Position numbers and translations under genes: made by a program. This document shows positions 3,415 through 28,372 of a stretch of DNA of 64,000 bases, in pieces. The stretch is taken from assembly GCF_003260975.1 (NCBI RefSeq), contig NZ_CP030041.1, positions 1,401,001-1,465,000 of the forward strand. Reading direction: 5' to 3'. The stretch comes from Echinicola strongylocentroti. GTDB taxonomy: Bacteria; Bacteroidota; Bacteroidia; Cytophagales; Cyclobacteriaceae. Numbering within the stretch: position 1 is the first letter of the stretch; the number at the start of each line of letters is the position of its first letter. Below the pieces are notes generated by a model. The model saw only the letters and a list, made by a program, of their open reading frames with translations, ran no database searches and had not been told where the DNA came from.

Positions 3415-4962
3415 ATGAAAAAAATAATTCCGCTCTTAATACTGTCCTTGACCCTAGCCTGTCAGTCTAAAAATCAAAACAACCTATCCAAAGAAGGCAC
3501 TCAAATGGAAATGTACGAGGAAAATTGGGAAAGCCTTAAAAATTACGAAATTCCACAATGGATGAAGGACGCTAAGTTTGGCATCTTTATTCACTGGGGT
3601 CCCAATTCAGTAGCAGAACGTTATACTGATTGGTATCCAAGATGGATGTACTTGGATTCTGGTATTGTGAACCCTCAAACCAATAAAGTGGTCAACAACA
3701 ACGCCCACCCGGCCGTGGCCTATCACAGGGAGAAGTTCGGTGACCAAAAGGATTTTGGCTTTAAAGACATGATCCCCCTTTGGACCATGGAAAACTTTGA
3801 TCCTAAAACGTGGGTAAATCTTTTCAAGCAATCAGGAGCGCAATATGTCATACCGGTAGCAGAGCATCATGATGGTTTTGCACTCTATGAATCTACCATT
3901 ACTCCTTACAATGCCGTGGATATGGGGCCCAAAAGAGATGTTTTAAAAGAGCTAACGGATGAGATCAAGAAACAAGGACTCATCTGTGGAGTAAGCTCAC
4001 ACCTAGCGTTCAACTACAACTACTATAATCAACAACCCTATTTTGACACGGGAAACCCACGATACGCAGACCTATATGGTCCTCCCCATACTATGGGGGA
4101 TTCGGTAAGTACCGAATGGCTGGCCGATGTATGGTGGCCCAGAACAAAGGAAATCATTGACAACTATCAACCGGATATTCTTTGGTTTGACTTTTACCTC
4201 GACCGGGCCGAATTTGCCCCATACCATAAAAAGCTGGCGACCTATTATTATAACTCCGGCATTGAAAGAAATAAATCAGTGGTTTTACAAACCAAGAACC
4301 TGCACTATAAATCTTATCCCGAAGGCACCCATATGCTGGACCTTGAACGCAGCAAAATGGACTCCTTGCGAAGGGACTATTGGCAGACTGATACATCCAT
4401 AGGCAAAAACTCGTGGTATTACTCAAAGAATTGGATACCAAAAGACGCGGGAAGCCTAATAGCAGACCTTATGGATATTGTAAGTAAGAACGGATGCCTT
4501 TTACTTAATATCGGGCCTAGAAAAGACGGTATCATCCCAGAAGATCAGAAAAAAACACTTTTGGAAATTGGTCAATGGCTGGAAATAAATGGAGAAGCGG
4601 TTTATGGTTCTACCTACTGGGAAGTTTATGGAGAAGGGCCGACCAGAACTGCGACCGGCCACCTATCAGAAAACAAAAACAAAGGCTTTACCCAAGAGGA
4701 TATCCGCTTTACTACCAATGAAGACGCACTTTACGCCACCGTACTTGTACCTCCTACAGAAGATGTGCAGATAAAATACCTAACAAATTCTAAAATTGAC
4801 ATCTCTTCCATCCAACTATTGGGCTATGATGGTAACATTGAGTTTGAGCAATCAGCAGGCGGGACATCCATCAAGTTACCTAAAGATACTGATTTGAAAC
4901 ATGCATTGGTTTTTAAAATCATTAAAGCAAAACCGCAGACCAATAACTTATCAGCGCATTAA
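3415..4962 (+). CDS. GH29 alpha-L-fucosidase/alpha-L-galactosidase lipoprotein
   Basis: Canonical GH29 enzyme, 515 residues, with a lipoprotein signal ending LTLAC (Cys16). It keeps the family landmarks: KFGIFIHWGPNS (about 54-65), EHHDGFALY (150-158) and the nucleophile D259 in PDILWFDFYLD. It is about one third identical in layout to the GH29 just upstream and is probably its paralogue. GH29 enzymes release terminal alpha-L-fucose; some members in porphyran loci release alpha-L-galactose, which differs only by the 6-hydroxyl. Given the GH117-rich locus that converges on this operon, L-galactose is a reasonable alternative. The sulfatase gene begins 11 bp downstream, so desulfation and glycosidic cleavage are likely co-expressed. 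Confidence 0.92.
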   Translation: MKKIIPLLILSLTLACQSKNQNNLSKEGTQMEMYEENWESLKNYEIPQWMKDAKFGIFIHWGPNSVAERYTDWYPRWMYLDSGIVNPQTNKVVNNNAHPAVAYHREKFGDQKDFGFKDMIPLWTMENFDPKTWVNLFKQSGAQYVIPVAEHHDGFALYESTITPYNAVDMGPKRDVLKELTDEIKKQGLICGVSSHLAFNYNYYNQQPYFDTGNPRYADLYGPPHTMGDSVSTEWLADVWWPRTKEIIDNYQPDILWFDFYLDRAEFAPYHKKLATYYYNSGIERNKSVVLQTKNLHYKSYPEGTHMLDLERSKMDSLRRDYWQTDTSIGKNSWYYSKNWIPKDAGSLIADLMDIVSKNGCLLLNIGPRKDGIIPEDQKKTLLEIGQWLEINGEAVYGSTYWEVYGEGPTRTATGHLSENKNKGFTQEDIRFTTNEDALYATVLVPPTEDVQIKYLTNSKIDISSIQLLGYDGNIEFEQSAGGTSIKLPKDTDLKHALVFKIIKAKPQTNNLSAH

Positions 4963-7195: not shown

Positions 7196-7999
7196 CTATT
7201 TATTTTGCTGATAATACCTCACCCAATCGATTTTCATGCTGGTACCGTCTATGGCGTCCGTCACTGTTCCATGCCACTTGATGATTGCCAGGCTTAAAAA
7301 GATGGGTGCTTCACTAAAACTAAATTCATTGACTACCCTCCGAATTTCTTTTCCATCCAAATAGAATACCAGTTCCTTTTCATCCCATAACAATCCGAAT
7401 GTGTGATATTCACTCGAGAAATCGATATTTTCAAAAGTGAATGCTTCTGGGTTTCGCGTGCTTATTTTCTTACCACTTTCCGTCAGCACCAAATCGGTGT
7501 GATTATGTATATTCGTATTCACCATATTAGGATAATGACCTTCATTTATATCTAGCTCAAACCGCTTACCTTCAGTTGGAGAAGCTCCCTTTGTCATCAA
7601 CCAAAACGAGTTGTTTGTCGCTTCTGCTGCCGCATATTTATAGCGACATTCAAAATAGCCGTATTTAAACTTCCTTTTGGTCCAGATACTTGCTGAAGTC
7701 CATTCCTGTCCTGCCTTGTTCTCTTTCTTGTTTTTAAGATACAATACACCGTCCTTAACTTCGGCATTTTCACGCCACCTACTACAGAGTATATGTCCAC
7801 TTGGACCATTTTGGGCTTCCCAATTTTCATCTAGCCGTGCATCAGGATATTCAAAATCATCTTCCCATACCAGTTTGAATTTTTTCTTCACAACACGCGG
7901 CACCTGTGCGGATACACTCACAGTGATCAAGAAGAGCATAGAACTTAAAACCAAGATCAGCGGACCATTTTTGGGTCTATTATTTTTCATATTCATCAT
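7196..7999 (-). CDS. secreted GH16 endo-glycanase (agarase/porphyranase/carrageenase type)
   Basis: Glycoside hydrolase family 16, a retaining endo-acting beta-jelly-roll enzyme. The catalytic signature is ELDINE, with nucleophile E148, D150 and acid/base E153, i.e. the beta-bulge ExDxxE form shared by laminarinases, agarases, porphyranases and kappa-carrageenases. An N-terminal signal peptide ends around VSVSAQ (31-32). Upstream of the motif are SFWLMTKG and downstream the strand with YHTFGLLWDEKELVFYLDGK, typical of the family. At 267 residues it is a single catalytic domain without carbohydrate-binding module. It is the last gene of the long minus-strand locus, 185 bp after GH2. Likely job: first cut of the galactan backbone. 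The sequence alone does not separate agarase from porphyranase. Confidence 0.93.
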   Translation of the reverse strand: MMNMKNNRPKNGPLILVLSSMLFLITVSVSAQVPRVVKKKFKLVWEDDFEYPDARLDENWEAQNGPSGHILCSRWRENAEVKDGVLYLKNKKENKAGQEWTSASIWTKRKFKYGYFECRYKYAAAEATNNSFWLMTKGASPTEGKRFELDINEGHYPNMVNTNIHNHTDLVLTESGKKISTRNPEAFTFENIDFSSEYHTFGLLWDEKELVFYLDGKEIRRVVNEFSFSEAPIFLSLAIIKWHGTVTDAIDGTSMKIDWVRYYQQNK

Positions 8000-8184: not shown

Positions 8185-11100
8185 TCATAGATTCAAATCT
8201 GCTCTTACAAGCTCCGACCAATTGCTTTCGCCCATAGGCGTATTCCTTGAAACTTGTAAGTATTGTGTCCCTGGCTTATCCAGCTCAATAGACATCATCC
8301 CGCGGACATTAGATCTGAAAGTCTTATCCAGATTCTCAGGATCCTTGCCATACCTCACTGTGTACTCACCATCGGTAAAATCACTTGAATACCCTATCAC
8401 CAGCTGACCATCAGTAATAAATGCATCCCAAACTATCGGTGGCAATACCTTTTCCGTCATGGTTACTTTTACAGTCTTCGAAGGCTTGCTTTCTCCCTGA
8501 TCATTGATCGCCACAAGGGCTAGTTCATAAGTTTTCTCAGTACCAAGATCTCCGATATCTACAAAATCAGCAACCGTCTTCTCTGATTGCATTACCTTAG
8601 CACCATCAGTGTAAGTCACATAGTATTCTGTAGCGTTTGGCACCTGATCGAACAATACCCTAGCTGCATTTTTGCCCGCTATCACCTCACGAATCTTCGG
8701 TGCAATGGCACGCTTAAACGAAATGGTTTTTTCTAAACGTGTATATCCTGTTGGCGCCTTTAAGCGGAGCGTGAGGTCAAGAACAGCTGAAGGCAAACCA
8801 GTCCATGTAAGCTCTTCAGACCATTCCTTATCCTGCGGCGCAAGGTCGGGAAGCTGTAAGGCATTTTCAAAAACAACTTTACCAGTAGCATCTCTAAATG
8901 CATACTCCAATCGGTAGTCCCGCATGGTGTAACTTGGGTAGTCTTTGGCATCGCGAATAGACATGCTGACATTAGCCTTACCGTTGGTAAAGTCTACATC
9001 AGATACCTCTATACCTTTCACTGGTGAGTGCTCTCGCTGTATGCGATCAAAAAGCCGCCTTTTTTCCCTCCAGGTGGTGATGACTCCCCACACTCTGTTT
9101 TCTTCCGCTGTGGTACCCGCATAAGCACTTCGGTAGTCATTAAAGGTCCACATGGAGGTACCAATCACAAACTCATTTTTAAACCTAAAATGATCCATCC
9201 ATTCGGAAAACACCTCTTTATCACCGTCCAGCGCAGTGGAAGGAAAAGGATCAAATCCAAATTCTGATATAAAGATTGGTTTGTCTGGCCATTTGGTTCT
9301 CAGCGCATCCAATATCTCCTGAGGCTCTCCCTGCCACCGGTACATATTGTGCATGATCATGTCCACAAAGGTATTGGGATCTGTTTGAGGGGTATACTCT
9401 TCTTTTTGGCCAGAATTGCTCACGCAGGTCACCAATCGGTACGGATCCAACTCTTTTTTTACATATTCGATCATCTCCCGGCCATATTCATAGTGATTAT
9501 TGAGCTCATTGCCCACACTCCATCCGATAATGCTGGGGTGGTTGATATCGCGCTCGATCATTCCTTTGAGCCAGTATTTAGCAAGCAGGTAGTTTTTCTC
9601 GTTCACCTCCACCCCATGTGCTTCTCTCAACATCACATAAGGCTCGTCCAACATCAGGATTTCTTCTTCTGCCCAATTTAGGTTTATACCTTGTTCCTCT
9701 TCTAGTTTGGCTACCGGATAGTAGTTGGCACGGAATTCATCATTGTCCAGGTCACGTACATTGATCTCTTCAAAAAGCAGGATACCCTTTTGATCACAGA
9801 GCTCAATGAGTTTTTCGTTTTGTGTGCCATGCATGATGCGCATAAAGTTGGCTCCGGACTCTTTCATTAGATCCACGTCTCTCTCCAATACTTCCAGAGG
9901 CTCAGAAGATCCCCAATAGCGGCTCTCACTTACCCGATTAAATCCCGCCAGACGAACGGCCTCCCCATTAAGCAAAAGCTGTGAATCAGTCAGCTGAACC
10001 TTACGGATACCAAACTGATCGACTTGTGTACTCAGCACTTGGCCACTTTCAGAAATCACCGTTTGAACCTGATACAGCTTGGGATTATCAAAGTGCCATA
10101 GCTCTACCTCACTGGCATCTAAGGAAGCCGTGAGCGTTATTTGATCCGTGCTGTGAGGAGCAAGTAAAAGCTCTCCGCTCAAAGTAGCTAATTCATCAGC
10201 CCCACTCCTAACTGATGATTTCACAGGAATGGATCGCTCTTGGTTGGAATTATTCTCTACTTTTACCTTGAGAGTAAGCTCAGCAGTACCAGACTGTAAA
10301 TCTGGATCCGCATGCATGTACTGATGGTCGATTCGTACAGTATTGGCTTGCGTGAGGGTCACGTCCCGGATGATTCCACCCCAATTCCATGTAGCACCTA
10401 CAATGGCACTGTTGTCAGCTTGTACAGCGATAACATTTTTACCCTCAAAATTCAGCGCATCGGTCACGTCAAACTCAAAAGGCGTAAACCCTCCACGGTT
10501 CATTCCGATATACTGACCATTGAGATACACCTTTGACAGGTGATACACACCTCCAAATTTCAGGTAATAACGCTTACTATTTGCCTTTTGCCAGCCATCG
10601 GGCAAGTCGATATGCTTGCGGTACCAGCCAATCCCGGTATAGTTAGAAAAGTCATTGATCATGCCCCAGTGTCCCGGAACGGTGAGGTCATCCCACTCAG
10701 AATCATCAAAATCTTTCAAATGGACGCGATCAGGCTCTGACTTGGCTCTTAAGAACTCTTCCTCAGAAATTTCCCTAAACATCACAGCATCTGCCGCCAC
10801 AGCACCGCTCACAATAGCCGTAAGTTCCACATAATTGTCATCAGCCTGATTGAAATCATATATCCCTAGACTCACCCACTCACCACAAACGACACGCTGA
10901 CTTTGGTATTTGGTCGTGATGCCATCAGCATGCTGTATGTTGTATTGGGCAGTCAGGTGGGATGAAAAAGGAAATATGGTAAACACTTCGTAGTAACCGG
11001 ATTTTTTAAATTCAGGATAAAACCTAACATACGAGCTGTCCTGAACATTGCCGTTATTAAGGTCAGTCAGGGAAAAGTAATGCTGCACATAATCCTCTTG

Positions 11101-11349
11101 GTAAAACCCGGAATTCCGTTCACCTTTTTTTGAGACCTTCCAGCTCCCTTTCATTTCGACATTCTCATCTGCATTATCAATGACAATATCTGATTCGCGT
11201 TCTTCTATATTGAGGTAATTGGAACCCTCGCCATAAATCGTGTAAAACTTCCATTTGCCATTTAGTGAGATTTCTTGACTCCTCACCTCCTTAGGGATAA
11301 GGCAGGTAAAAAAGAATACAATGGGTAGATATAGAAATAGTTTTTTCAT
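8185..11349 (-). CDS. secreted multidomain GH2 glycosidase
   Basis: Glycoside hydrolase family 2 (beta-galactosidase/beta-glucuronidase superfamily), 1054 residues, signal peptide ending about residue 24. Domain order: an inserted beta-sandwich at about 115-195 resembling the golvesin/xanthan-lyase-type domain (SGYYEVFTIFPF to AVMFREI), GH2 sugar-binding domain (about 215-340, VYLNGQYIGMNRGGF), immunoglobulin-like domain (340-455), TIM barrel (455-770) and two fibronectin-III-like domains at the C-terminus. Catalytic residues: acid/base E615 in GNELNN and nucleophile E696 in FISEFGFDP. Probably exo-acting on terminal beta-D-galactose of the oligosaccharides. A 4-bp-overlap pair of GH117 genes lies upstream, separated by a repeat element (11364-11559), so its transcript may be uncoupled from them. 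Confidence 0.93.
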   Translation of the reverse strand: MKKLFLYLPIVFFFTCLIPKEVRSQEISLNGKWKFYTIYGEGSNYLNIEERESDIVIDNADENVEMKGSWKVSKKGERNSGFYQEDYVQHYFSLTDLNNGNVQDSSYVRFYPEFKKSGYYEVFTIFPFSSHLTAQYNIQHADGITTKYQSQRVVCGEWVSLGIYDFNQADDNYVELTAIVSGAVAADAVMFREISEEEFLRAKSEPDRVHLKDFDDSEWDDLTVPGHWGMINDFSNYTGIGWYRKHIDLPDGWQKANSKRYYLKFGGVYHLSKVYLNGQYIGMNRGGFTPFEFDVTDALNFEGKNVIAVQADNSAIVGATWNWGGIIRDVTLTQANTVRIDHQYMHADPDLQSGTAELTLKVKVENNSNQERSIPVKSSVRSGADELATLSGELLLAPHSTDQITLTASLDASEVELWHFDNPKLYQVQTVISESGQVLSTQVDQFGIRKVQLTDSQLLLNGEAVRLAGFNRVSESRYWGSSEPLEVLERDVDLMKESGANFMRIMHGTQNEKLIELCDQKGILLFEEINVRDLDNDEFRANYYPVAKLEEEQGINLNWAEEEILMLDEPYVMLREAHGVEVNEKNYLLAKYWLKGMIERDINHPSIIGWSVGNELNNHYEYGREMIEYVKKELDPYRLVTCVSNSGQKEEYTPQTDPNTFVDMIMHNMYRWQGEPQEILDALRTKWPDKPIFISEFGFDPFPSTALDGDKEVFSEWMDHFRFKNEFVIGTSMWTFNDYRSAYAGTTAEENRVWGVITTWREKRRLFDRIQREHSPVKGIEVSDVDFTNGKANVSMSIRDAKDYPSYTMRDYRLEYAFRDATGKVVFENALQLPDLAPQDKEWSEELTWTGLPSAVLDLTLRLKAPTGYTRLEKTISFKRAIAPKIREVIAGKNAARVLFDQVPNATEYYVTYTDGAKVMQSEKTVADFVDIGDLGTEKTYELALVAINDQGESKPSKTVKVTMTEKVLPPIVWDAFITDGQLVIGYSSDFTDGEYTVRYGKDPENLDKTFRSNVRGMMSIELDKPGTQYLQVSRNTPMGESNWSELVRADLNL

Positions 11350-11592: not shown

Positions 11593-12873
11593 CTATTCCT
11601 TTTGTAGTTTCAAATTTTGTTCTTCAATCCGCTTTCTTTGATCCTTGGACAATCCCTGACGGTAATAAACGTCCAAGTCATGACGGATACCCGTTTCCTT
11701 CATCTGCGGATCGTCCACATCCAAGCTCAGGTCACAATCAAACCGCGTAAGGATGGAATGGGGGTTCACGCCATAGGTTCCGGCATTTACAAAATGTGAA
11801 AGGCCCCAAGTGATTCCGCGACCATAGTCCGTATTGGTATAAGCACCCGGCACAAATGGCCCAGCCGCTACAGGCACCAATTCGCCAATTGAAGCAATTT
11901 CAAAATTGACCCAATCTTCAGCGTATTGGATGGTAAAGTGCTCGGTGCCGTCCTTTGCCACAATGGCGCCTAGGCCTTCTTTGAAGGGAAACATCGTCAC
12001 CTCATGTCCAGAGCTTGTCAATGGATTTAGAGGATGTTTTTCAAAGGGGCCAAGCGGATCTGTCCCAGTGACCAATCCCCCGCCAACCCAAACCGGATTC
12101 GGTCTGTTAAATGCGGATTTATAATAAATGTAAATTTTACCATCATGCACCAAAGGGTATGGATCGTGGATGGCATATTGATCCCAAGATCCTTCCGGGC
12201 CATTTTCGATCACCACTTTGCCCGAAGCCGTCCATGGACCATCTGGCGAATCCGCGTAGGAAACGGTCACGGGACAATAATCCCCCCGTTTTCCACTGGC
12301 CTCCATAAAACCTTGATAGTAGAGATAATATTTCCCCTTCCATTTAAGAATATCTGTAGTCGATACCGACCGCCAGCCCACCTCGGGCTTAGGAGGTCGC
12401 GGCACAGCTACTCCCTGCTCTTCCCAGTGAAACCCATCCTTACTGGTTGCATACCATATTTCAGCCAGGTCCCAATCAGTCGAAGGAATAGTATCATTGC
12501 TTTGATCGGCATTGCTTGCGCCCACAGGAATAACTGGAGTGTCCCTCTTGGTGTACCACACATAATATTGGCCATTCTCAAAGATCACCTTGGATGGATC
12601 CCGTCGAGAGATCGTTCCATCATGGCCGTTATAATCAAACCCCTTAAGCTCAGTATATTTGAACTGGGAGTATAATTCATTGTTTCGTGGATGGATAGCG
12701 CTATAATCATGAAAACTCCGCTCCATGGCCGCACTTAACTGCCGGTCTTTAGTATCTTCAGTGATGGTATAAGGAAATGGACTTTGTTCCCTATTTTGAC
12801 TTGCAGTATTTTTATCAGGAGATTGACAAGCGACCAAGGTCATCACACCCGCTATTAGCATATTTTTGATCAT
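11593..12873 (-). CDS. GH117 3,6-anhydro-alpha-L-galactosidase-like lipoprotein
   Basis: Five-bladed beta-propeller of family GH117, whose known members release 3,6-anhydro-L-galactose from the non-reducing end of neoagaro-oligosaccharides. The three positions important in characterised GH117 enzymes are all present: base D92 in RRDPS, D237 in IHDPYP and the unusual His acid H290 in SSGHE. It also keeps SEIWYATS-type, YLYY and DPLGPF blade motifs. Lipoprotein signal ends TLVAC (Cys16). The ATG overlaps the stop of the upstream double-propeller gene by 4 bp, so the two are translationally coupled. It is very similar to the second half of that neighbour and to 31305-32594. Confidence 0.93.
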   Translation of the reverse strand: MIKNMLIAGVMTLVACQSPDKNTASQNREQSPFPYTITEDTKDRQLSAAMERSFHDYSAIHPRNNELYSQFKYTELKGFDYNGHDGTISRRDPSKVIFENGQYYVWYTKRDTPVIPVGASNADQSNDTIPSTDWDLAEIWYATSKDGFHWEEQGVAVPRPPKPEVGWRSVSTTDILKWKGKYYLYYQGFMEASGKRGDYCPVTVSYADSPDGPWTASGKVVIENGPEGSWDQYAIHDPYPLVHDGKIYIYYKSAFNRPNPVWVGGGLVTGTDPLGPFEKHPLNPLTSSGHEVTMFPFKEGLGAIVAKDGTEHFTIQYAEDWVNFEIASIGELVPVAAGPFVPGAYTNTDYGRGITWGLSHFVNAGTYGVNPHSILTRFDCDLSLDVDDPQMKETGIRHDLDVYYRQGLSKDQRKRIEEQNLKLQKE

Positions 12874-15200
12874 TTATTCTGTCGTTTATTGGATTCTTCA
12901 ATGCGTTTTCTTTGTTTATCTGTCAGCCCAAACTGAAAATAAATTTCCGGAGACAATCGATAATTATGGTCTTTCATTTCGGGATCATGTACATCCAAAC
13001 TTAAATCACAATCAAACCGATACAGTTCTGAATGCCACCTGTCATTATTTTTGCCCCTAAAATTTATAAAGTGACCGATTCCCCAAGTAATCCCTCTTCC
13101 ATTTTTGTTGTCAGCAAAAGCATCGGGTATATAGGCATTTGGTCCCGTAGGCATAAACTCGGTTATGGACATTACTTCAAAATTGACCCAATCTTTAGCG
13201 TACTGAATGGTAAAATGCTCACTACCATCTCTTATGGTCAATGATGCCACTCCTTCTTTCCATGGGAAAAAGCAAATCTCGTGGCCTGAGTTTTGAACGG
13301 GATTTAATTCATGCTTTTGAAACGGCCCAAGTGGATCTTCCGCAATGGCCAAGCCTATGCCACTCCATACGGTATGTGGTCGGTTAAATGCTGCTTTGTA
13401 ATACACATAGATTTTTCCATCATGTATCAATGGCGTAGGTGCCTGAATAGCAAATTGGTCCCATTCTCCCTTTTTACCTGTAGGAATGACCACATCATCT
13501 ACATGAGTCCATGGCCCATCTATACTGTCAGCATAGGCCACTCCAACAGGACAATAGTCTCCCCTAACCCCACTGGGTTCCGTAAATGCTTGGTAATACA
13601 AATAATATTTCCCCTTGAACTTCAAAATATCCGGGGTGGCCACTGCCCTCCAACCCGGAGTGGGATACGTTGGACGAGCAACTGCCACCCCTTGCTCTTC
13701 CCAGTGAAAACCATCCTCACTGGTTGCATACCAAATTTCCCCCAAATCCCAATCGGTAGTGGGTATGGTATCATTCCAAACCAAACCGTCTGCCGAGGTT
13801 TCCATTATTTTATAATCATTTGAAAATCTTCCTACTGGAGGAATTGGTGTATCACGCTTCGTATACCACACATAATACTTCCCGTTTTCAAACAAAATCT
13901 TGGAAGGATCCCTCCTGGTAACGGTAGCATCGCCATCATTATAATCGAAACCTGTTAATTTGGTATACCGAAATTGGCTGTATAACTCATTTTCCGCATT
14001 TACATGGGAAGAGTACTGGTTAAAACTCCGATCGATTGCTGCACTTAACTCGTAATCATCTGAATACTCCGTCACCTGATAAGGGAATGCTTTAGTCTCT
14101 GGTAATGGGGCCTTCAAAGGAAGAACCACCGAATACGAATCCTCACTTTCTTCTGGCAATACAGCAACTATCATTGCCTTAGGTATCCCCCCTTCCATAT
14201 AAAACTTAGGCATATCTGCTGTACGTTTGGTATGCGTGACGGTTCCGTCCATCCAGTTTATCTTACCCGCTTTTATTGCCAAAAAATTCTGGGCAGGTTG
14301 CCAGTCCAATCCCATATCATCGGATTCAAACAACATCGTACTTCCCTCAGGATGGTCCGACCATACACCTCTTGAATCTTTTGCCAAACAATAATAATTC
14401 CCGTTATAGACCCACTCCAAGTGGTCATCAATTGCAAAAGAGGCTGTAGGGTGGGTGATAAATGGAATGTCGGTATCGACAAATGGACCTTCTGGTTCCC
14501 TGCTGACAGCTGTAACGTGTACTACCTTTCCCCCTCTCTCACTACCATCATCCTTAACATATTTATAGGTCATTAAAAATTGTCCATCAAGTCGTTTGGA
14601 AACTACTGGTGTGGAGACCATTCTCCTTCCCTCTACCACATTTATCAGTGGCTGATCAAAACGTTTCCATTCTCCATTCAGGTCATCTGCTATCGCAAGG
14701 CCAATACGCTGATTGTTTCTGTTGACCCACCATTCCTCATCCTCAGAGATGGATGGCATACGATCTGGTGAAGTATCATCCCAATAACCGCTGCCCTTGT
14801 TCCCCATATAATAAAGGTAATACTTCCCTTCATGTTCCATCACATGGGGATTATGCGTGCAATCGCCATCCCAATATTGCTTTCCCCGAGCAGGCAGCAC
14901 GACATTTCTAAACTCATAAGGACCTGTCAGTTTATCGGAAACAGCATGAGCAATCTCAGAGTGTGTCACCCAGCCATGGTGCCCTCTACTTTTCGGCCAA
15001 CGGGAATAGATGGCATGATACTTACCATCCTTGCCCTTGACGATATTGGTTCCCCAAACATTATAATTCTCCTCACTGATAATATTTGACTTGCTCCATT
15101 TTTCAGGTAACAGCTTGGTGAAATCCAAACCATCTTGTGCCATGGTACTGGTAGATAAAAATAGCGCTGCCAGCACGAATACCTCTCTCATTATTTTCAT
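12870..15200 (-). CDS. double beta-propeller fusion: GH43-like domain + GH117-like domain
   Basis: A 776-residue secreted protein (signal peptide ending STSTMAQ, about 22) made of two propellers. The first (about 23-365) matches the stand-alone 17046-18176 protein: WGTNIVKGKDGKYH, YWDGDCTHNP, RNNQRIGLAIAD, VVHVTAVS. The second (about 372-776) is a GH117 domain close to its downstream neighbour. In the GH117 half the base is kept (D431, RRDPS) and so is the acid His (H640, SGHE), but the middle motif IHDPYP has become IQAPTP (Q586, A587), so the conserved active-site Asp is missing; the codons CAG GCA are clear in the DNA. It also has an insertion SADGLVW (about 469-475) absent in the others. 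Either this half is a binding module or it uses a changed mechanism. Activity of the first half is unknown. Confidence 0.9.
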   Translation of the reverse strand: MKIMREVFVLAALFLSTSTMAQDGLDFTKLLPEKWSKSNIISEENYNVWGTNIVKGKDGKYHAIYSRWPKSRGHHGWVTHSEIAHAVSDKLTGPYEFRNVVLPARGKQYWDGDCTHNPHVMEHEGKYYLYYMGNKGSGYWDDTSPDRMPSISEDEEWWVNRNNQRIGLAIADDLNGEWKRFDQPLINVVEGRRMVSTPVVSKRLDGQFLMTYKYVKDDGSERGGKVVHVTAVSREPEGPFVDTDIPFITHPTASFAIDDHLEWVYNGNYYCLAKDSRGVWSDHPEGSTMLFESDDMGLDWQPAQNFLAIKAGKINWMDGTVTHTKRTADMPKFYMEGGIPKAMIVAVLPEESEDSYSVVLPLKAPLPETKAFPYQVTEYSDDYELSAAIDRSFNQYSSHVNAENELYSQFRYTKLTGFDYNDGDATVTRRDPSKILFENGKYYVWYTKRDTPIPPVGRFSNDYKIMETSADGLVWNDTIPTTDWDLGEIWYATSEDGFHWEEQGVAVARPTYPTPGWRAVATPDILKFKGKYYLYYQAFTEPSGVRGDYCPVGVAYADSIDGPWTHVDDVVIPTGKKGEWDQFAIQAPTPLIHDGKIYVYYKAAFNRPHTVWSGIGLAIAEDPLGPFQKHELNPVQNSGHEICFFPWKEGVASLTIRDGSEHFTIQYAKDWVNFEVMSITEFMPTGPNAYIPDAFADNKNGRGITWGIGHFINFRGKNNDRWHSELYRFDCDLSLDVHDPEMKDHNYRLSPEIYFQFGLTDKQRKRIEESNKRQNK

Positions 15201-15250: not shown

Positions 15251-16978
15251 CTATTTCTCCCAAAATGAGAAAACCTCCTTAAGTTGTCCATAGGCTTTTT
15301 TCCTTTCTCTACGTTCATTGACCACGCCCCACTCCCTAAAGCCAGAGGCAGGGGTTCCTTTGTATTTGCTGCGGTAGTCATTATAACTCCAAATGGAAAA
15401 ACCCGTGACATACGGCAGGTCCTTTAAGCCTTTTAGTTCGGTGACTAGCTCTTCACTTAATTCCGCAGCAGGGGCAGGCCCTATTTGGCTTTTACCGATT
15501 TCTGAAATGAAGATGGGCTTACCCGGAAATTTCTCATGGGTCTTCTGTGCAAGCTTCACCGCCTCGCCGTAGGAATTCATGGAGATAAAATCCACTTTTT
15601 CATAAGGTTCTGTTCCCACCTCACCTTGGCGGTAGGAAGTAATCGTCACATAAGTCTTCAGTCTAGAAGCGTCAAGTTTTTCTACATAATCGAGCATGGA
15701 ATTGACATACTTATATTGGGCAGTGGTCATGGATTTTTCGGACCATTCTCCTTTAGGATCACGGAGCTCGTTGCCTACGCTCCAGGCAACTATACTAGGG
15801 TGGTTATAATCCCGTTCCACCATTTCTTTGAGCCAATGTTTGGTCAGTGGGTTATCAGGGAAAGCCTGAGGATCATCATCGCCCCACACAGGGATTTCCC
15901 CTACCAGAAGAAATCCAATACTATCGCAGAGGTCAAGCAGGTCTTCTGAATAGGGCGCATGCATCAGGCGGGCAAAATCTCCCCCAAGGTTATACTTGAT
16001 ATCCATCATGTCTTTACGCACCAAGGGATCCGGTTCGGTATTGCCATAAGCAGGGTGATCGTGCACACGGTTTACGCCATTCAGGCGTACCGGTTTATTG
16101 TTAAGGAAAAACTGTTCTTCCCTGACTTCAAACTTCCTAATCCCAAACTTATCTGTATCCAGGTCTACTGTTTTGCCATCCACGGTCACTTGACTGGTCA
16201 AGGAATAAAGGTTCGGCGCATCAATACCCCACAATTGGTAATCGGCCAAGCTCCTATTGAATTTTATTTCCGAAAAGACCTCCTCCCCAGGCGCCACATC
16301 TTTGGTCGCATAAACTGTATCCTGCTGCTGATCAATCGTGGTCCTTATATCAGCTGTGACGGTTTTGGAACTGTTATTTTCCAGTTTATACCTAATGGCA
16401 AATTGCACTTCATCACGCTCAAAATCCGGTATGGCAGAAATATGTTGGCTCACAAGCCTTATCGGTTCATGCGCCTCTAGGCTTACCTCTCGGCTTATGC
16501 CTCCCCATGGCCACCAAGCTCCGCGGTTATAGGAGTTATCTGCCATCACGACCAATGAATTGTTACCATCACGGTCTATAACATCCGTCACATTGAACCC
16601 AAAAGGGGTATAACCTCCCACATGCTCACCTAAGAATTGTCCATTTAGCCATACTTTGGCTGTTTGGTAAACAGCACCGAAATGTACCCTGACATGTTTG
16701 TCTGTCCAGTCTTCAGGGATGTTAAACTCCTTGCTATAATAGCCTTTCCCTACAAAATCAGCGTAACGGTCCCTGGTATCCCAGTTACCCGGTACATTTA
16801 ATGTGTCCCATGAAGAATAATCAGCAGTTAGCAATTGGTCTTTTCCTATCTCATTGGAAGCCAAAAAATGCCAAGTCCCATTTAATGAAATGACCTCTTG
16901 GTATTGCCCAAAGGGCAACTCCTTTTTCCCACAAGAAACAAAGGACAAAACTAGGAATAACAAACACAATTGTTTCAT
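15251..16978 (-). CDS. GH2 glycosidase lipoprotein
   Basis: Compact GH2 enzyme of 575 residues. The start at 16978 is chosen because it yields a clean lipoprotein signal (MKQLCLLFLVLSFVSC); the longer frame up to 17116 would overlap the upstream gene and add no known domain. Domains: sugar-binding (about 25-170), immunoglobulin-like (175-285) and TIM barrel (285-575). Acid/base E404 in WSVGNELRDP, nucleophile E493 in FISEIGKSQ. WSYNDYRSKYKGTP near the end resembles the WTFNDYRSAYAGTT of the larger GH2 at 8185-11349, so the two may share ancestry and specificity (probably beta-D-galactoside). It sits between the two genes for GH43-like propellers. Confidence 0.92.
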   Translation of the reverse strand: MKQLCLLFLVLSFVSCGKKELPFGQYQEVISLNGTWHFLASNEIGKDQLLTADYSSWDTLNVPGNWDTRDRYADFVGKGYYSKEFNIPEDWTDKHVRVHFGAVYQTAKVWLNGQFLGEHVGGYTPFGFNVTDVIDRDGNNSLVVMADNSYNRGAWWPWGGISREVSLEAHEPIRLVSQHISAIPDFERDEVQFAIRYKLENNSSKTVTADIRTTIDQQQDTVYATKDVAPGEEVFSEIKFNRSLADYQLWGIDAPNLYSLTSQVTVDGKTVDLDTDKFGIRKFEVREEQFFLNNKPVRLNGVNRVHDHPAYGNTEPDPLVRKDMMDIKYNLGGDFARLMHAPYSEDLLDLCDSIGFLLVGEIPVWGDDDPQAFPDNPLTKHWLKEMVERDYNHPSIVAWSVGNELRDPKGEWSEKSMTTAQYKYVNSMLDYVEKLDASRLKTYVTITSYRQGEVGTEPYEKVDFISMNSYGEAVKLAQKTHEKFPGKPIFISEIGKSQIGPAPAAELSEELVTELKGLKDLPYVTGFSIWSYNDYRSKYKGTPASGFREWGVVNERRERKKAYGQLKEVFSFWEK

Positions 16979-17045
16979 TTTTTTGATCGGTTTTAGCGTG
17001 ACGATAGCCTGTCTGTTCATGATGCTGAATGTTTCTTTAGTCCAC

Positions 17046-18176
17046 TCACGGAGCATGCTTGACAATGGACAATGGAAGCTGGACATTGAAGGAATGGCGG
17101 ACATTATTCGCATCAATGGTATCAGCGGCGCATAGCAACGCTACCGGTTCTCCTTTTTCCATAAACAACTGAGGGCGCTCCAAATGGTCCAGCTTGGTAG
17201 TCGAGCCATCTTCCCAAGTGACCGTACGGTCAGATACTTCAAAATACTTCCCTTTTTCCCACTTAATACCATCCTCCGAATCGTAATGAACCAATGAAAA
17301 AAGCCGTTCACTGCCTTTGAACTTTATGCGCTTGACAATAGCTCGGTATTTCCCATCTTGAAACCAGATGTACGGGTCCTCAGCGGGAAAGCGTTCTCCT
17401 TCGAAAGTAAACACAGGATCGGGATATTTCTTAAAAGGCCCTGTAGGCGAATCGGCAATGGCGACCATATGTACCACTGGTCCACCTCCCGGAAGTGGTT
17501 CTTTTTTCCCTACAGTTTTGTAAACCATCAAAATCCTGCCGTCCTCCATTTGACACACGGAAGGATTGGAAGTCATCAGTGCATCATGGGCAGTGCTGTC
17601 CGAAGCGATGTCCAACACAGGCTGGTCAAGTCGCTTCCATGGACCGTTTGGACTATCGGCCACGGCCACTCCTATTCGTTGGTTATTGCGGTGTACCCAG
17701 TTGATCTTCGGTTTTCCAGGAGTACTTACTATTTCTTTATCGCCCTTATTGCCCATATAGTACAGGTAGTACTTTTCACCTATCTTATATACAGTGGGAT
17801 TATGGGTACATGATCCATCCCAGTAATTCTCCCCTCGATCAGGAAGGGCTACCTCCCTATGTTCAAAAGGGCCAAATGGGGATTCGGAAACCGCATGGCC
17901 GATCTGGGAATAGTTGACCCATTCCCAGCCAATATTTTTGGGCCAAAACGAATACATCATATGGTATAAACCATCCTCACCTTTCACCAGTGAGCCACCC
18001 CAGATGCTTGCTGTATCACTGGAAAATGAAGAATGCGCCGCTATTTTGCCAAGCTTTATTTCGAAATCAGGTGCTTTTTGCTTGAGCTTACCATCCGACT
18101 GCCCACATCCATAAGCCAGCAGGATGATCGCTCCCATTAGCACCTTGATTGGTATAATTGTTATTTTACTATCCAT
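17046..18176 (-). CDS. GH43-like five-bladed beta-propeller lipoprotein
   Basis: Putative glycoside hydrolase with the GH43/GH32/GH117 propeller fold. Start at 18176 gives MDSKITIIPIKV and a lipoprotein signal ending LLAYGC. Blade motifs: MYSFWPK, YWDGSCTHNP, YYLYYMGNKGD, HRNNQRIGVAVADSPNGPW, TSNPSVCQ, HMVAIADSPTGPF and AEDPYIWFQDGKYR (a plausible acidic active-site segment). I know this as a common protein type in marine Bacteroidota and Planctomycetota sulfated-glycan loci, usually annotated only as glycoside hydrolase, and I cannot give an activity. Its close relative is fused to a GH117 domain two genes downstream (12870-15200), which argues for a step just before or after anhydrogalactose release. 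Confidence 0.82.
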   Translation of the reverse strand: MDSKITIIPIKVLMGAIILLAYGCGQSDGKLKQKAPDFEIKLGKIAAHSSFSSDTASIWGGSLVKGEDGLYHMMYSFWPKNIGWEWVNYSQIGHAVSESPFGPFEHREVALPDRGENYWDGSCTHNPTVYKIGEKYYLYYMGNKGDKEIVSTPGKPKINWVHRNNQRIGVAVADSPNGPWKRLDQPVLDIASDSTAHDALMTSNPSVCQMEDGRILMVYKTVGKKEPLPGGGPVVHMVAIADSPTGPFKKYPDPVFTFEGERFPAEDPYIWFQDGKYRAIVKRIKFKGSERLFSLVHYDSEDGIKWEKGKYFEVSDRTVTWEDGSTTKLDHLERPQLFMEKGEPVALLCAADTIDANNVRHSFNVQLPLSIVKHAP

Positions 18177-18236
18177 CTTTCTTCTATTTAATTGATTCTT
18201 TAAACAACGCATCTCCATGCGCTTTGCCCGCCTTGA

Positions 18237-19754
18237 TCAAAAAGGGTGTGGCTCGTCATTTTCCGTGCTTCTGAATACATATGGTTTCCACTGTTCATAT
18301 CGCTTTTGCCATTCTTCCAGTGTTCTTGTTGGGTAGGTGGAGGGTAATCCACCCATCCTAAATTCCTGCGATACTCCTTGGTCTTGGATGGACTTCCTCC
18401 ATGCATAAAGCTCGCCCAGCAGCTGGTCCTTGATCGCTCCATAGGCTTTGTCATAAGCAAGATTCTGGAGCTCATAGGGATCCTTGGAGATATGGTACAG
18501 TTCGAACTCTGGCTTAGTGGGAGCAAAGAATTTTGCCTGATCTTCGTTCAGTTTTCCCTCTAGGTACATGACACTCATCTCCGCCAGCATGGGATAGTTG
18601 TCTTCTTTATATCCGCTATACTGTAGCCAGGCTCTTTCAGGCATAAGGTTATGGATAAGTTTGTATTCCTTGGACCGGATGGTGCGCATAGCATCATGTG
18701 TGCTGCCCATCCTGTCCCTTGCTGCATAAATGTATTGGCGTGGTGACAGAGCATCTGAAAACAGGGACCTCCCCTGCAATTGGGTCTTGGGCCTCGCTCC
18801 TGCCACATCCAGTATGGAGGCGGTTACATCTATACTTTGTACCAAGTCGTCGCTCACCTGCCCAGTGCCGACCACACCGGGCCACCGCATGATCAGGGGC
18901 ACTTGAATCCCCGGGTCATATAAGAACTGTTTGCCGCGAATGTGGCACCTTCCATTGTCCCCTATCAAAATGACCAAGGTGTTTTCTACAAGACCTTCAT
19001 CCTCCAACCTGCTGAGTATCTCTCCAATTTCCCGATCGCAGAGCTGCATCTGCTCCAGACCGTTTGCCCAGTCACGTCTGGCAAATGGGGTGTCCGCATA
19101 GTACGGAGGAAGCACCACCTCTTCGGTGGCAATAGGATTTAAGGGATCCCTTTTCCATTCACGGTGGGTACCGGTAAGTGTTATTTGGGCAAAGAAGGGC
19201 TGCCCCTTCTTACGGTCTTTCCAGTCATCGCCCATAAACCCCAAGTCACCTTTAAAGTTGGCATCGGTTTTAGCAGACTTCATCAATGCGGTATAATAGC
19301 CCGCTTCTTTCAGTAATAGTGGCAGGGGCTTTATACCATGAGGCAATACTTCTTTATCCTTCTCGGCTGTTCGGTGTTGCTGGGCACCGATGTAATTTTG
19401 ATGAAACCCAGTAATCATCGCTGACCGGGACGTAGAGCATACAGGACTGGTGCAAAAGGCATTGGTATACCGTGCTCCTTGACTGGCCAAAGTATCCGTA
19501 AAGGGAGTCTGGATGCCCTCGGTCCCATAGCAGCCGAGATCAGTACTCCAATCCTCCAACATGATCCAAACGATATTGGGCCGAGGAGCGGCTTTTTCAC
19601 CCTGCGCCATACTTGCAGAAGCGGTCAGCATTAAAATGCTCCACAAAACAACCTGGATGACTACAAGCCCCTTGGTTACCTGATACTGAAGCCAGGAAGC
19701 AACTACTTGGTTATATAAATTAATTGTACCCATAAACTTATTATCCGGATTCAT
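18237..19754 (-). CDS. S1-family sulfatase with CSTSR formylglycine motif
   Basis: Formylglycine sulfatase of 505 residues. The N-terminus is long (about 30 residues before a hydrophobic stretch VVIQVVLWSILMLTASASMA), consistent with a signal peptide cleaved near 50; an internal ATG at 19733 is an alternative start. Active-site motif VCSTSRSAMITG with C106 as the residue to be modified: the usual Pro of CxPSR is Thr. Relatives of the S1_8-like group often have CSASR here, so the Pro-less motif is not by itself disabling. First metal site LEDWST (E67, D68), second GDNGRCHIRGK. It follows SusD by 33 bp. Likely target: a sulfate ester on imported or surface-bound galactan; position unknown. Confidence 0.92.
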   Translation of the reverse strand: MNPDNKFMGTINLYNQVVASWLQYQVTKGLVVIQVVLWSILMLTASASMAQGEKAAPRPNIVWIMLEDWSTDLGCYGTEGIQTPFTDTLASQGARYTNAFCTSPVCSTSRSAMITGFHQNYIGAQQHRTAEKDKEVLPHGIKPLPLLLKEAGYYTALMKSAKTDANFKGDLGFMGDDWKDRKKGQPFFAQITLTGTHREWKRDPLNPIATEEVVLPPYYADTPFARRDWANGLEQMQLCDREIGEILSRLEDEGLVENTLVILIGDNGRCHIRGKQFLYDPGIQVPLIMRWPGVVGTGQVSDDLVQSIDVTASILDVAGARPKTQLQGRSLFSDALSPRQYIYAARDRMGSTHDAMRTIRSKEYKLIHNLMPERAWLQYSGYKEDNYPMLAEMSVMYLEGKLNEDQAKFFAPTKPEFELYHISKDPYELQNLAYDKAYGAIKDQLLGELYAWRKSIQDQGVSQEFRMGGLPSTYPTRTLEEWQKRYEQWKPYVFRSTENDEPHPF

Positions 19755-24441: not shown

Positions 24442-26718
24442 TTAGGTAATACATATACCAAAAACAGCTAGAGGTACCTTATCGGAAGGATGCTCAAACT
24501 GAAGTTTAAGCATACCAGTGACCACTGGTTGGTCAAAGTCGACAGTTATGACCGCTTGATGGTTTTCGGAGATCGTGGCCAGGTGATTTTCATCATCATC
24601 CATCACTATCATATTCCTGGCAACAAATGGCATGACATGTTCATGGTGTTCCATTTGTACCGTTTCCATAGGATGATCGTAATCCGGATCAAGAAATATT
24701 TTGAGGCGACTTATCGAAACGGGATGAGACCATTGGAAATCAAGGGAAGGCTGGGTATCTGATGGGCTAGCCATCCAAGCGTTAGGCTGCGCTACAGGCC
24801 GGTACAATGGGCTAAGAATGTTATTGACTTCATAGGTATATACTGGTTCTGCAAATTCAATGGCCATATTTCCTCCCTTGGGCCGACGCTTTGGGCACCA
24901 AAACTCAAACTCATCCACTCCCGATCCTTCAGGCGGTTCTTGCTTGCCAAAATTGGAAACCGCCTTATTCACCTGATTATACACTGAGACCATGCCCGAT
25001 AGCAATTGGTCAGAAAGTAGAATATCCACGTCGTCGTTTTTCAAGACCGTAATAAATGCATATTGGTCTTGGAATCCTCCCAAGTCTCCCACCTCCACTG
25101 CCAGCTTTTGTTCTCCAACCTCCAATGAATAATCGGTTGACCACACCGTGATATCCGGCGTGTGGTTATATGGTTTGCTACTTTTCCTTACTTGTACCGT
25201 AAGTGCTGTCGCCTTTCTGACACGTAAGGACAGGGAAAATCCGGGTATTTTTTTTCGTACTGGAACCATTTGAGCCATCGAAAAGGAAAGGTTCTCCCAT
25301 GAGAATCCAGCTGACAGGGCTCCTAAACTGTATTCACTTGACGGATGGATGACGGCATCATCGGCCAAGTTATTTAAAGTGAATTGAAGCTGTGGGATAT
25401 AATGTCCCGTAGCCACCAGGTCCTGCTGGAGCTTTTTCAGCTTACTCTTCTCAAGTAGCTCACGAGGGGAGACATCGTATTTTATAACATGCGCTGCAGC
25501 CATCCCGACAGCCTGTCCTCCATGGGCACACGTCGCCATTACCCTCGTGGAACCAAAGGCCACGTGGGAGGCACTTATGATCCTTCCAGCCAGCAGCAGG
25601 TTATCAATGGACTTCGGGACATAGCACCTGTAAGGTATGGCGTAAACGCCCTTGGTATGCCACTGGGTGCAGCTGGGCTTATCACTGTACACCCCGTCAG
25701 CAGGGTGAAGGTCCATTGCCCATCCCCCAAAAGAAATCGCATCATCGTGGGCTTGCTGATGGACAAGGTCTTCCTGCTTTAGCATATACTCCCCTTCAAA
25801 TCTTCTGCTCTCACGTTTGCCGGGGATCAGGCCCACCCATTCCAAGGTATAGTGATCGGCTTCTGTAAAATTCCCTGAGTTCTTTATATAATTCCATATT
25901 CCGTAAGCTACTTTCCACAGCTCATGTTTGATTTCTTCAGTATCGTGGATGGTATCTTTCCTACCACCATACTCAAACCACCACAGCTTACACCCATGGT
26001 CGCCCACTTCCACATTTTTGACTCCTGGAATCTGGGAAGTGTCCTTTATCGCATAATCGGGTGCCACATACTTGACTGGCTTTTCTGTTTTCTTGGAATA
26101 AAAAAACAAGGTATGCCCAAGCAGTTCACCATAATCTTCCACATCAGGAGCCAATCCTTCTCCTAGCTCCTCGGGGCTTTCGGCTCCTATTCGGTAAGGC
26201 ACCCCGGCCATATAGGACACAATGCCATCACCCGATGCATCAATGAACTGCCGGGCAGCAAAATGATAGAGTGTAGAATTCTGGGAATTAAATGCGATGA
26301 CTTTTTCGATGGTGCGGTCGTCAGCTTTGGCAATATGGAAAACTGATGTATTGAGGTAAAGACTAATATTGGGCTCCGCCATTACCTTGTCAAGCACCAC
26401 CGTATCAAAAAGCACCGGATTGCCCTCTTTGTTTCGAAAGGTATTCTCCACCATGATTTCATCCACTATCCCCCCTTCTCTCGCCCATCGGTTGTTATTT
26501 CCCATGTGGGAGGTGGCTCCCAAGGCCCATAATCTCACTTCGCTGGAAGCGTTGCCTCCTAATACAGGCCGATCTTGGATCAAGGTCACTTTGCACCCCT
26601 GCCGTGCTGCGGTAATCGCCGCACAAACACCGGAAAGTCCTCCTCCCACGATTACGATATCCGAATATGCTGTGGATTCTTTAAGATTACGAAAACTCTT
26701 AAACGCTTCTTTGATCAT
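24442..26718 (-). CDS. FAD-dependent oxidoreductase (FAD_oxidored family) in PUL
   Basis: Large flavoprotein, 758 residues from the start at 26718 (MIKEAFKSFRNL), chosen because it begins 1 bp after the upstream stop; the frame continues to 26760 but would overlap. The Rossmann motif DIVIVGGGLSG (20-30) binds FAD; RPVLGGNASSEVR follows, and FIDASGDG and LLAGRIISASHVAFGSTRVMATCA are the conserved C-terminal parts of the FAD_oxidored family found widely in glycan loci. After the flavin domain (to about 450) there is a long beta-rich region with no recognised domain. No signal peptide, so probably cytoplasmic. The substrate is unknown; a role in oxidising a released sugar is only a guess from position between the symporter and SusC. 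Confidence 0.85.
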   Translation of the reverse strand: MIKEAFKSFRNLKESTAYSDIVIVGGGLSGVCAAITAARQGCKVTLIQDRPVLGGNASSEVRLWALGATSHMGNNNRWAREGGIVDEIMVENTFRNKEGNPVLFDTVVLDKVMAEPNISLYLNTSVFHIAKADDRTIEKVIAFNSQNSTLYHFAARQFIDASGDGIVSYMAGVPYRIGAESPEELGEGLAPDVEDYGELLGHTLFFYSKKTEKPVKYVAPDYAIKDTSQIPGVKNVEVGDHGCKLWWFEYGGRKDTIHDTEEIKHELWKVAYGIWNYIKNSGNFTEADHYTLEWVGLIPGKRESRRFEGEYMLKQEDLVHQQAHDDAISFGGWAMDLHPADGVYSDKPSCTQWHTKGVYAIPYRCYVPKSIDNLLLAGRIISASHVAFGSTRVMATCAHGGQAVGMAAAHVIKYDVSPRELLEKSKLKKLQQDLVATGHYIPQLQFTLNNLADDAVIHPSSEYSLGALSAGFSWENLSFSMAQMVPVRKKIPGFSLSLRVRKATALTVQVRKSSKPYNHTPDITVWSTDYSLEVGEQKLAVEVGDLGGFQDQYAFITVLKNDDVDILLSDQLLSGMVSVYNQVNKAVSNFGKQEPPEGSGVDEFEFWCPKRRPKGGNMAIEFAEPVYTYEVNNILSPLYRPVAQPNAWMASPSDTQPSLDFQWSHPVSISRLKIFLDPDYDHPMETVQMEHHEHVMPFVARNMIVMDDDENHLATISENHQAVITVDFDQPVVTGMLKLQFEHPSDKVPLAVFGICIT

Positions 26719-26719
26719 G

Positions 26720-28372
26720 CTAATTTTTTGATTTCTTTTTTCCAAAATATAATCCAGCACTTGCCATAAGTACCATGATAATACCGGCAGCTACCAGCAT
26801 CTCATTTCCTTTACTGGCGATTATACCAAGTCCTGTCATTATCAATCCAATCATGCCTGTGGCAATTGAGATGACTTTTATCCCGAAAGCGGTATCATCA
26901 CCCGACCGCTCTACTTCTTCCACTTCCTGGTCGGAGCCAATGGTTACCGGGGCTTTCTCCCCTGATAAAACAGGCCTATTCTTGATTTCAAATAGGATCA
27001 ACATACATACAGGCACTGCAACACCCAAGGTCATTTCCATACTTCTGGAAACTTCATAATCCAGCACGGAAGGCAAAATGAGTATTATCAATGCCAATCC
27101 GACGATACTCAGAATTGAGGTGATAATTACCGACCTGCTGTCCTGTCTCCTCGAATACAGACTCCAAAGTATCGGCGCAAACAACGGCGCTCCAGTCACT
27201 GCGGCTACTTTCAGCACTACATTGACGATTCCTCCCAAATAGGGAACCAGCATGGCTACGCCCATCACGCCAAGACCAAAAACTACGGTCACCCATCTGG
27301 CGACTTTAATCAATTGTTTTTCTGACGCTTGGGGATGGATAGACTTGTAAAGGTCATTAGTGGTGACAGCCGCCATCATATTGAGGGTTGTATTTACCGA
27401 GCTGGCCGTAGCAAAGACCATAGCTGCTATCATCAGGCCCAACATACCAATTGGCAAGGCCTTGGCACACATCATGAGGTAGGCTCCTTCCATCTGCTGG
27501 GTGGTCACCAGTCCGGGGTCGTACACCTTATAAATCATAGGTGGCAACATCCATATCAACGGAAAAACCAAGTAAAAGCCAGCGAATAACAGGGCTACTT
27601 TTTTTGCCTCTTTTGGAGATTTTACACTTGTATAGCGTTGTACATACGCCCAATTTCCTCCGATAAAAACAAAATTGTAAAGCATGAAAGCCACCAAGAA
27701 CATGGGGCTAAATTCACTGTTGATAAGACCAAAAAAACCTTCTGGGGACTGGGCAATAAAACCATCCATCCCCCCCACTTCATCCAATGCCAATGGGATA
27801 ACAATAAAAACTGCCGCTGTCAGTACCACAAACTGCAATACATCCGTGGCCAATACTGCCCAAAACCCACCCACAGCGGTATAAAGAACAATGGTAATTC
27901 CTAAAATCAGGATGATAAGGGTAATAGGCACCTGTGCCGAAACCGATACGATCTTTGCCACTGGATACAGGAAAGATCCGGCCGTAAAAAATGACACTGC
28001 AATAAACAAATAAGAATATATTTTCTGGGTTTTTACGCCAAACCTATGGGTAACATATTCAGCAGCGGTCAAGACGTTAGCCTCTTTCCATTTGCGGGCT
28101 ACCGTAAAATAAATGATCAGCCCTGCGATGGCCATCATACTCTGTATAGTAACTGCCACCATTCCTTGGTCATAGGCGATAGAACCCCAGACCACAAATG
28201 TCCCGGCAGAGAAAAAACTCATAAACAAGCTAAGCCCACTAATCCACCAAGGCACATTGCCTCCTCCGGCAAAAAAATTGGCCATCGAACGTCCTGTCCT
28301 GGCAAAAGCCAATCCAGCAGATAGGACAATTAGTGTAAACACTCCGATTAAAATGTAATCTTGCTCTTGCAT
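26720..28372 (-). CDS. sodium:solute symporter (SSS family)
   Basis: Inner-membrane Na+-coupled transporter of about 13 helices, 550 residues. Recognisable SSS features: FFAGGGNVPWWISGLSLFMSFFSAGTFV near the N-terminus, the central YTAVGGFWAVLATDVLQF segment, and ATASSVNTTLNMMAAVTTNDLYK, the helix that usually carries the sodium site. A charged cytoplasmic loop (about 465-490) precedes the last helices. It is the first gene of the 21-kb PUL transcript, directly downstream of paired LacI-type operators, and probably imports the mono- or disaccharide made in the periplasm. Which sugar is not visible. Confidence 0.94.
   Translation of the reverse strand: MQEQDYILIGVFTLIVLSAGLAFARTGRSMANFFAGGGNVPWWISGLSLFMSFFSAGTFVVWGSIAYDQGMVAVTIQSMMAIAGLIIYFTVARKWKEANVLTAAEYVTHRFGVKTQKIYSYLFIAVSFFTAGSFLYPVAKIVSVSAQVPITLIILILGITIVLYTAVGGFWAVLATDVLQFVVLTAAVFIVIPLALDEVGGMDGFIAQSPEGFFGLINSEFSPMFLVAFMLYNFVFIGGNWAYVQRYTSVKSPKEAKKVALLFAGFYLVFPLIWMLPPMIYKVYDPGLVTTQQMEGAYLMMCAKALPIGMLGLMIAAMVFATASSVNTTLNMMAAVTTNDLYKSIHPQASEKQLIKVARWVTVVFGLGVMGVAMLVPYLGGIVNVVLKVAAVTGAPLFAPILWSLYSRRQDSRSVIITSILSIVGLALIILILPSVLDYEVSRSMEMTLGVAVPVCMLILFEIKNRPVLSGEKAPVTIGSDQEVEEVERSGDDTAFGIKVISIATGMIGLIMTGLGIIASKGNEMLVAAGIIMVLMASAGLYFGKKKSKN

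Follow-up and report, generated by a model that had tools for sequence, protein, structure and literature searches.

Echinicola strongylocentroti encodes a 776-amino-acid protein (positions 12870-15200 of the window, minus strand; the window is the whole stretch of 64,000 nucleotides that we analyzed) in which two propeller domains are fused, and we tentatively propose that it is an enzyme with two active sites. The protein is predicted to be a secreted exo-enzyme that acts on red-algal agaran or porphyran oligosaccharides. Its second half would be an active GH117 with a retuned -1 pocket: Gln-Ala takes the place of His-Asp in the IHDPYP motif, and the base D431, the acid dyad His640/D658, E641, and K602 are retained. 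Because loss of the Asp side chain would free space and remove a negative charge, we expect the release of a modified L-sugar in alpha-1,3 linkage, namely L-galactose or 3,6-anhydro-L-galactose that carries a sulfate or an O-methyl group, and not of plain 3,6-anhydro-L-galactose, with inversion retained. The first half would be a separate GH117-like enzyme that acts on the same oligosaccharides. We infer the secretion, the activity, the substrate, the mechanism, and the coupling of the halves from sequence, conservation, phylogeny, the occurrence of the halves in unfused form, and the locus, and we put this reading as a whole at slightly below an even chance.

The first half (residues 1-366; 14103-15200, minus strand) has a start that looks by eye like a signal peptide and belongs to a subfamily of GH117-like propellers that we call FUSN. 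The second half (residues 367-776; 12873-14102, minus strand) is a GH117 domain of what we call the Q-x-P-T clade. An earlier note on this DNA had described the gene as a fusion of two propellers, each of which matches a single gene nearby, and BLASTP bears this out. A stand-alone propeller that we call PROP (17046-18176, minus strand) matches residues 42-362 with 39% identity (frame 17046-18218; 330 columns, E = 1e-70), and residues 368-776 are 60% identical, over 409 columns, to the stand-alone GH117 at 11593-12873 (minus strand). The stop of the fusion and the start of this GH117 overlap by 4 bases. Nevertheless, the halves are members of their own conserved subfamilies and not recent copies of the neighboring genes. 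Neither NCBIfam nor PHROGs offered a useful name for the fusion protein. Its predicted structure has a mean pLDDT of 83.2 and a pTM of 0.77.

In another genome of the same genus (G006), the orthologous fusion gene (L064:10292-14095) is broken by an insertion that carries a 411-amino-acid open reading frame, which by eye resembles an IS4-type transposase. A frame of 1268 amino acids in this genome is only apparent, as the IS4-like insertion lies between two pieces. The GH117 that adjoins the broken gene is 98% identical to the one in the window.

To map the active site of the second half, we counted along its alignment to 4ak5, in which the sequence index is the residue number + 2. In BpGH117, Asp90 is the base, His302 and Asp320 form the acid dyad, and single mutations of Glu303, Asp90, Asp245, Glu167, or His302 are described as inactivating (PMC11574756). 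Asp90 corresponds to D431 (13908-13910; mapped by hand), His302 and Glu303 to H640-E641 (13278-13283), Asp320 to D658 (13227-13229), and Lys260 to K602 (13395-13397), so by sequence alignment this whole set is matched. The position of Glu167 is taken by D524 (13629-13631), and Asp is also found there in 4u6d and 4u6b. At Asp245 of the HDP motif, the second half has A587 (codon 13440-13442) within IQAPTP (residues 585-590; 13431-13448; all of these features are on the minus strand), and the stand-alone GH117 at 11593-12873 has IHDPYP at 235. D431 lies in RRDPSK. These results agree with the earlier note, which had reported that D431 and H640 were kept while IHDPYP had become IQAPTP and had identified the lost residue as an active-site Asp of characterized GH117 enzymes. 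For the Zobellia enzyme, the machinery is given as Asp97, Asp252, and Glu310 (PMC13118177), and Asp252 is taken to be the same position as Asp245 of BpGH117.

The second half is thus a GH117 by sequence and by fold similarity to characterized members, but because Asp245 is replaced by A587, we do not file this relative as a neoagarooligosaccharide hydrolase. The solved structures nearest to it are 4u6d (Zg3615) and 4u6b (Zg3597), followed by BpGH117. The N-terminal helical segment, which is involved in dimer swapping in GH117, aligns in the second half, with low confidence at about residues 397-410 of a monomer model. BpGH117 (4ak5-7), ZgAhgA (3p2n), Zg3615, and Zg3597 are GH117 alpha-1,3-L-neoagarooligosaccharide hydrolases and relatives, and the fusion differs from all of them: Asp245/252 is Ala, the preceding His is Gln, and the domain lies behind a second propeller. 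In the open-licence literature, we found neither FUSN-GH117 fusions nor any natural loss of Asp245 described. To our knowledge, a single reaction is known for the GH117 family. GH117A of B. uniformis NP1, a gut paralogue, is described as having no activity on agarose (PMC5849685).

To see how widespread the replacement is, we compared homologues (the best 120 of 871, of 2152, and of 2946 matches). Among the listed proteins and the loci that we fetched, and with only domains that aligned over more than 250 columns included and identical copies counted once, 47 of 208 distinct GH117 domains have the Q-x-P-T motif, with Ala in 33 and Asp in 14. D431, D524, and K602 are kept in all 47, and H640, E641, and D658 are kept in 46; the exception (P0014) is a sequence that ends before that part. 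The Q-A-x-T state is neither chance nor a sequencing slip, as it is found in 33 of the 208 domains and as the Ala equivalent to A587 is encoded by four different codons across the fusion loci. With the motif columns excluded, the Q-x-P-T rows form one clade in each of two trees (32 of 110 rows, SH-aLRT 99; 46 of 66 rows, SH-aLRT 100; both from a short search without bootstrap). Within the clade, the residue changed between Ala and Asp at least five times, and at least two of these changes are forced by strong branches. In this clade, the change in the motif is an old one and is conserved.

The full FUSN-GH117 fusions (20 in the second tree) fall on one fork (SH-aLRT 94), which corresponds to one change. 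However, P0016, which is outside this fork, begins with 76 residues that match the end of the FUSN domain at 66% identity, so it is a cut fusion, and with it a single origin gives way to two changes. These could be two separate fusions, or an older fusion that was later split. Overall, the fusion arose once or twice, and the residue switched several times. We also considered whether the fusion had caused the loss of the Asp. Stand-alone genes have QAPTP and three distinct fusions retain the Asp (QDPTP), so the loss is independent of the fusion.

Three further GH117s have Gly at the same Asp (L023:26-1255, L024:9965-11209, and P0040; motifs HGPYP and HGPCM), which amounts to two changes in the first tree. 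These relatives are separate from the Q-x-P-T clade. Those of L023 and L024 adjoin a gene homologous to that of the FAD oxidoreductase at 24442-26760 in the window.

Outside of the motif, the GH117 half is strongly constrained. Of the columns that are conserved in at least 95% of the 105 rows with HD (138 near-invariant columns), 120 are unchanged in at least 95% of the 32 rows with Ala, and 15 drop under 90%. The sole columns to be wholly replaced, in all 32 Ala rows, are 586 and 587, the H and D of the HD motif. Position 587 alone has an acid that is common in the HD rows and lost in the Ala rows. As a compensating acid elsewhere, we found only E725, an incomplete gain whose distribution does not follow that of the Ala: it is present in 26 and missing in 6 of the 32 Ala rows and is also present in 6 of the 14 Asp rows. 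By the Nei-Gojobori method, comparison with G006 gives a dN/dS of 0.042 in one piece of the GH117 half and 0.063 in another; the first half has 0.078, and the stand-alone GH117 has 0.057. For most pairs between genera, dS is saturated. The clade has also gained a basic residue. Lys or Arg is found in the first four residues after HF in all 30 of the QAT loops that could be parsed (of 33 rows) and in all 7 parsed QDT loops (of 14 rows), versus 3 of 100 parsed HD loops (of 105 rows). This loop follows the end of a strand and may lie away from the active site. The strong constraint, the retained base and acid, the change from His-Asp to Gln-Ala, and the gain of the basic residue together suggest a site that is retuned rather than dead.

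The first half is a member of a highly conserved subfamily of GH117-like propellers that lacks the GH117 base. Where GH117 has the base Asp in the blade-1 RRDP motif, the first half has Gly; set on the shared GKY(Y/H), it reads VWGTNIVKGKDG versus RRDPSKILFENG in the second half. A FUSN signature of 27 positions is found in 20 of the 21 distinct fused first halves listed and in two unfused genes at one locus (L018). The PROP propeller, whose nearest solved folds are GH117, also lacks the base, as its profile has a gap opposite RRDP. Besides their 39% identity, PROP and the first half have THNP, RNNQR, K213, and D259 in common, but the first half has its own signature, with D258 for E266, T197 for N204, and M330 for R334. 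A PROP member from Formosa agariphila (P0189) is annotated as GH117, and the PROP query has 2152 protein matches with an E of at most 1e-3, among them perhaps some true GH117s. The match of the first half to a domain of BT_0996 (5mui, 5mt2), whose family we take to be GH137, is a fold match only (15% identity).

Each half is also found in chains that lack the other. Lutibacter citreus has two single FUSN genes, and its QAPTP GH117 is a third gene about 140 kb away; another genome (G058, 99% complete) has FUSN, and its only match to GH117 is a weak cross-hit on a propeller. Other chains combine two propellers of this superfamily, as the fusion does, but with other partners or in another order. 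Using hmmsearch with both domain profiles, we found GH117-GH117, with both domains complete, in all four long proteins tested (P0018, P0020, P0032, and P0035), PROP-like tandems in all three tested, PROP-GH117 in P0017, and GH117-PROP in P0037. Unlike the fusion, P0017 and P0037 keep HDPYP in their GH117 halves and have the PROP signature in their propeller halves. Similar lengths among P0018-P0050 suggest more tandem GH117-GH117 proteins.

The locus is a porphyran/agar one. On the minus strand, a run of genes encodes a GH16 (7196-7999), a GH2 with a Golvesin_C domain (8185-11349), the stand-alone GH117, the fusion, another GH2 (15251-17116), PROP, and a sulfatase (18237-19754; closest PDB entry 9bb9, S1_8A), along with SusD and SusC by the look of their sequences. 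A further stand-alone GH117 (31305-32594, minus strand) has the motif H-D-x-Y. There are two GH29 genes, one of which (3415-4962, plus strand) is closest to 7snk and to the exo-alpha-L-galactosidase 7ljj. Directly upstream of the window are a beta-porphyranase (presumably GH86), a sulfatase, a ferredoxin, a ferredoxin reductase, and a P450. Across 11 other loci (L009-L019; ten with the fusion, and L018 with unfused genes), a sulfatase is found in all 11, another GH117 in 9, a separate PROP-type gene in 6, and a GH16 in 6. Searching 14 stretches (L009-L019, L064, L065, and L082, with flanks of up to 10 kb), we found no match at E = 1e-15 to the GH86, P450, ferredoxin, or reductase of this genome. 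P450 is present in 8 of 10 genomes with the fusion and in 6 of 9 others (the L018 genome has one but is in neither count), so we rejected it as a marker of a methylated substrate. The P450 of E. strongylocentroti (L080:9321-10471, about 28 kb from the fusion), which lies beside the ferredoxin and the ferredoxin reductase, is split over two reading frames, and it is the only one found in this genome. A 384-amino-acid protein without a Pfam match (35601-36755 in the window) recurs near the GH117s of L009, L014, L016, and L020, at 27-44% identity.

The earlier note had offered two readings of the GH117 half, as a binding module or as a domain with a changed reaction; the changed reaction fits our results, and the binding module is disfavored. 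If the second half were non-catalytic, then it would be a GH117-fold module for binding or dimerization that keeps the oligosaccharide in place while the first half acts. Asp245, which is Ala here, is reported to be essential in BpGH117 (PMC11574756), and this also counts against a retuned site; furthermore, the domain shares its chain with a second propeller, pairs of propellers are found repeatedly in other combinations, and the switching between Ala and Asp could mean that the residue no longer matters and that the site is not catalytic. Yet pure binding would call for neither a general base nor a His/Asp proton pair, and the base, the acid dyad, the Glu, and the Lys are kept wherever the clade's sequences reach that far. 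Together with a dN/dS of about 0.04-0.06, the replacement of just two columns, and the retention of the Asp by 14 members of the same clade, this makes a binding module unlikely. That the second half is an ordinary 3,6-anhydro-L-galactosidase, with Gln586, a water, or another acid standing in for the Asp and the substrate unchanged, strikes us as quite unlikely. The switching within a clade that is otherwise constant fits such an enzyme, and E725 might be the acid, but its distribution does not track the loss, and two stand-alone GH117s that keep the Asp are already encoded in the window. (The ordinary GH117s of this genome also weigh against a retuned site.) Finally, it could be the +1 side that is retuned, so that 6-O-methyl-galactose or sulfated galactose is tolerated beside the ordinary anhydrosugar. 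We take the blade-3 Asp to bind the -1 sugar, by homology with GH32 and GH43, which counts against this explanation. The P450 demethylation set upstream and the agarobiose units of porphyran, which are described as methylated accordingly, with D-galactose (PMC12316285), speak for it, but the presence of P450 does not separate the fusion genomes from the others, and we regard a retuned +1 side as improbable.

For the preferred reading, in which the -1 pocket is retuned for a modified L-sugar, GH16 offers a precedent for opening a pocket via one small residue: a change from Ser/Thr to Gly correlates with room for a methyl group, as described in PMC12316285. P450 demethylation of porphyran has been described (PMC10033563), as have LA2M units in several agarans (PMC7511586). 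Against the preferred reading, the upstream GH86 and P450 set was not found in the flanks of the other fusion loci that we tested. A broader scenario, which is rather doubtful but deserves mention, is that the clade repeatedly dropped the catalytic Asp to accommodate an L-sugar that is charged or methylated, and that it became joined to a second GH117-like exo-enzyme, one with no GH117 base and with a different catalytic set. The result would be a bifunctional trimmer of native porphyran or agaran.

GH117 genes have multiplied in degraders of red algae; for example, Lutibacter citreus (G098) and Labilibacter marinus (G102) have nine each, with at least 54% identity to P0056. The Q-x-P-T clade, in which an Asp that is essential in BpGH117 is naturally swapped while the other catalytic residues are kept, offers a clean test of the role of Asp245. 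The clade also points to unassigned steps in how sulfated and methylated galactans are degraded, and the PROP and FUSN propellers would gain a first functional handle.
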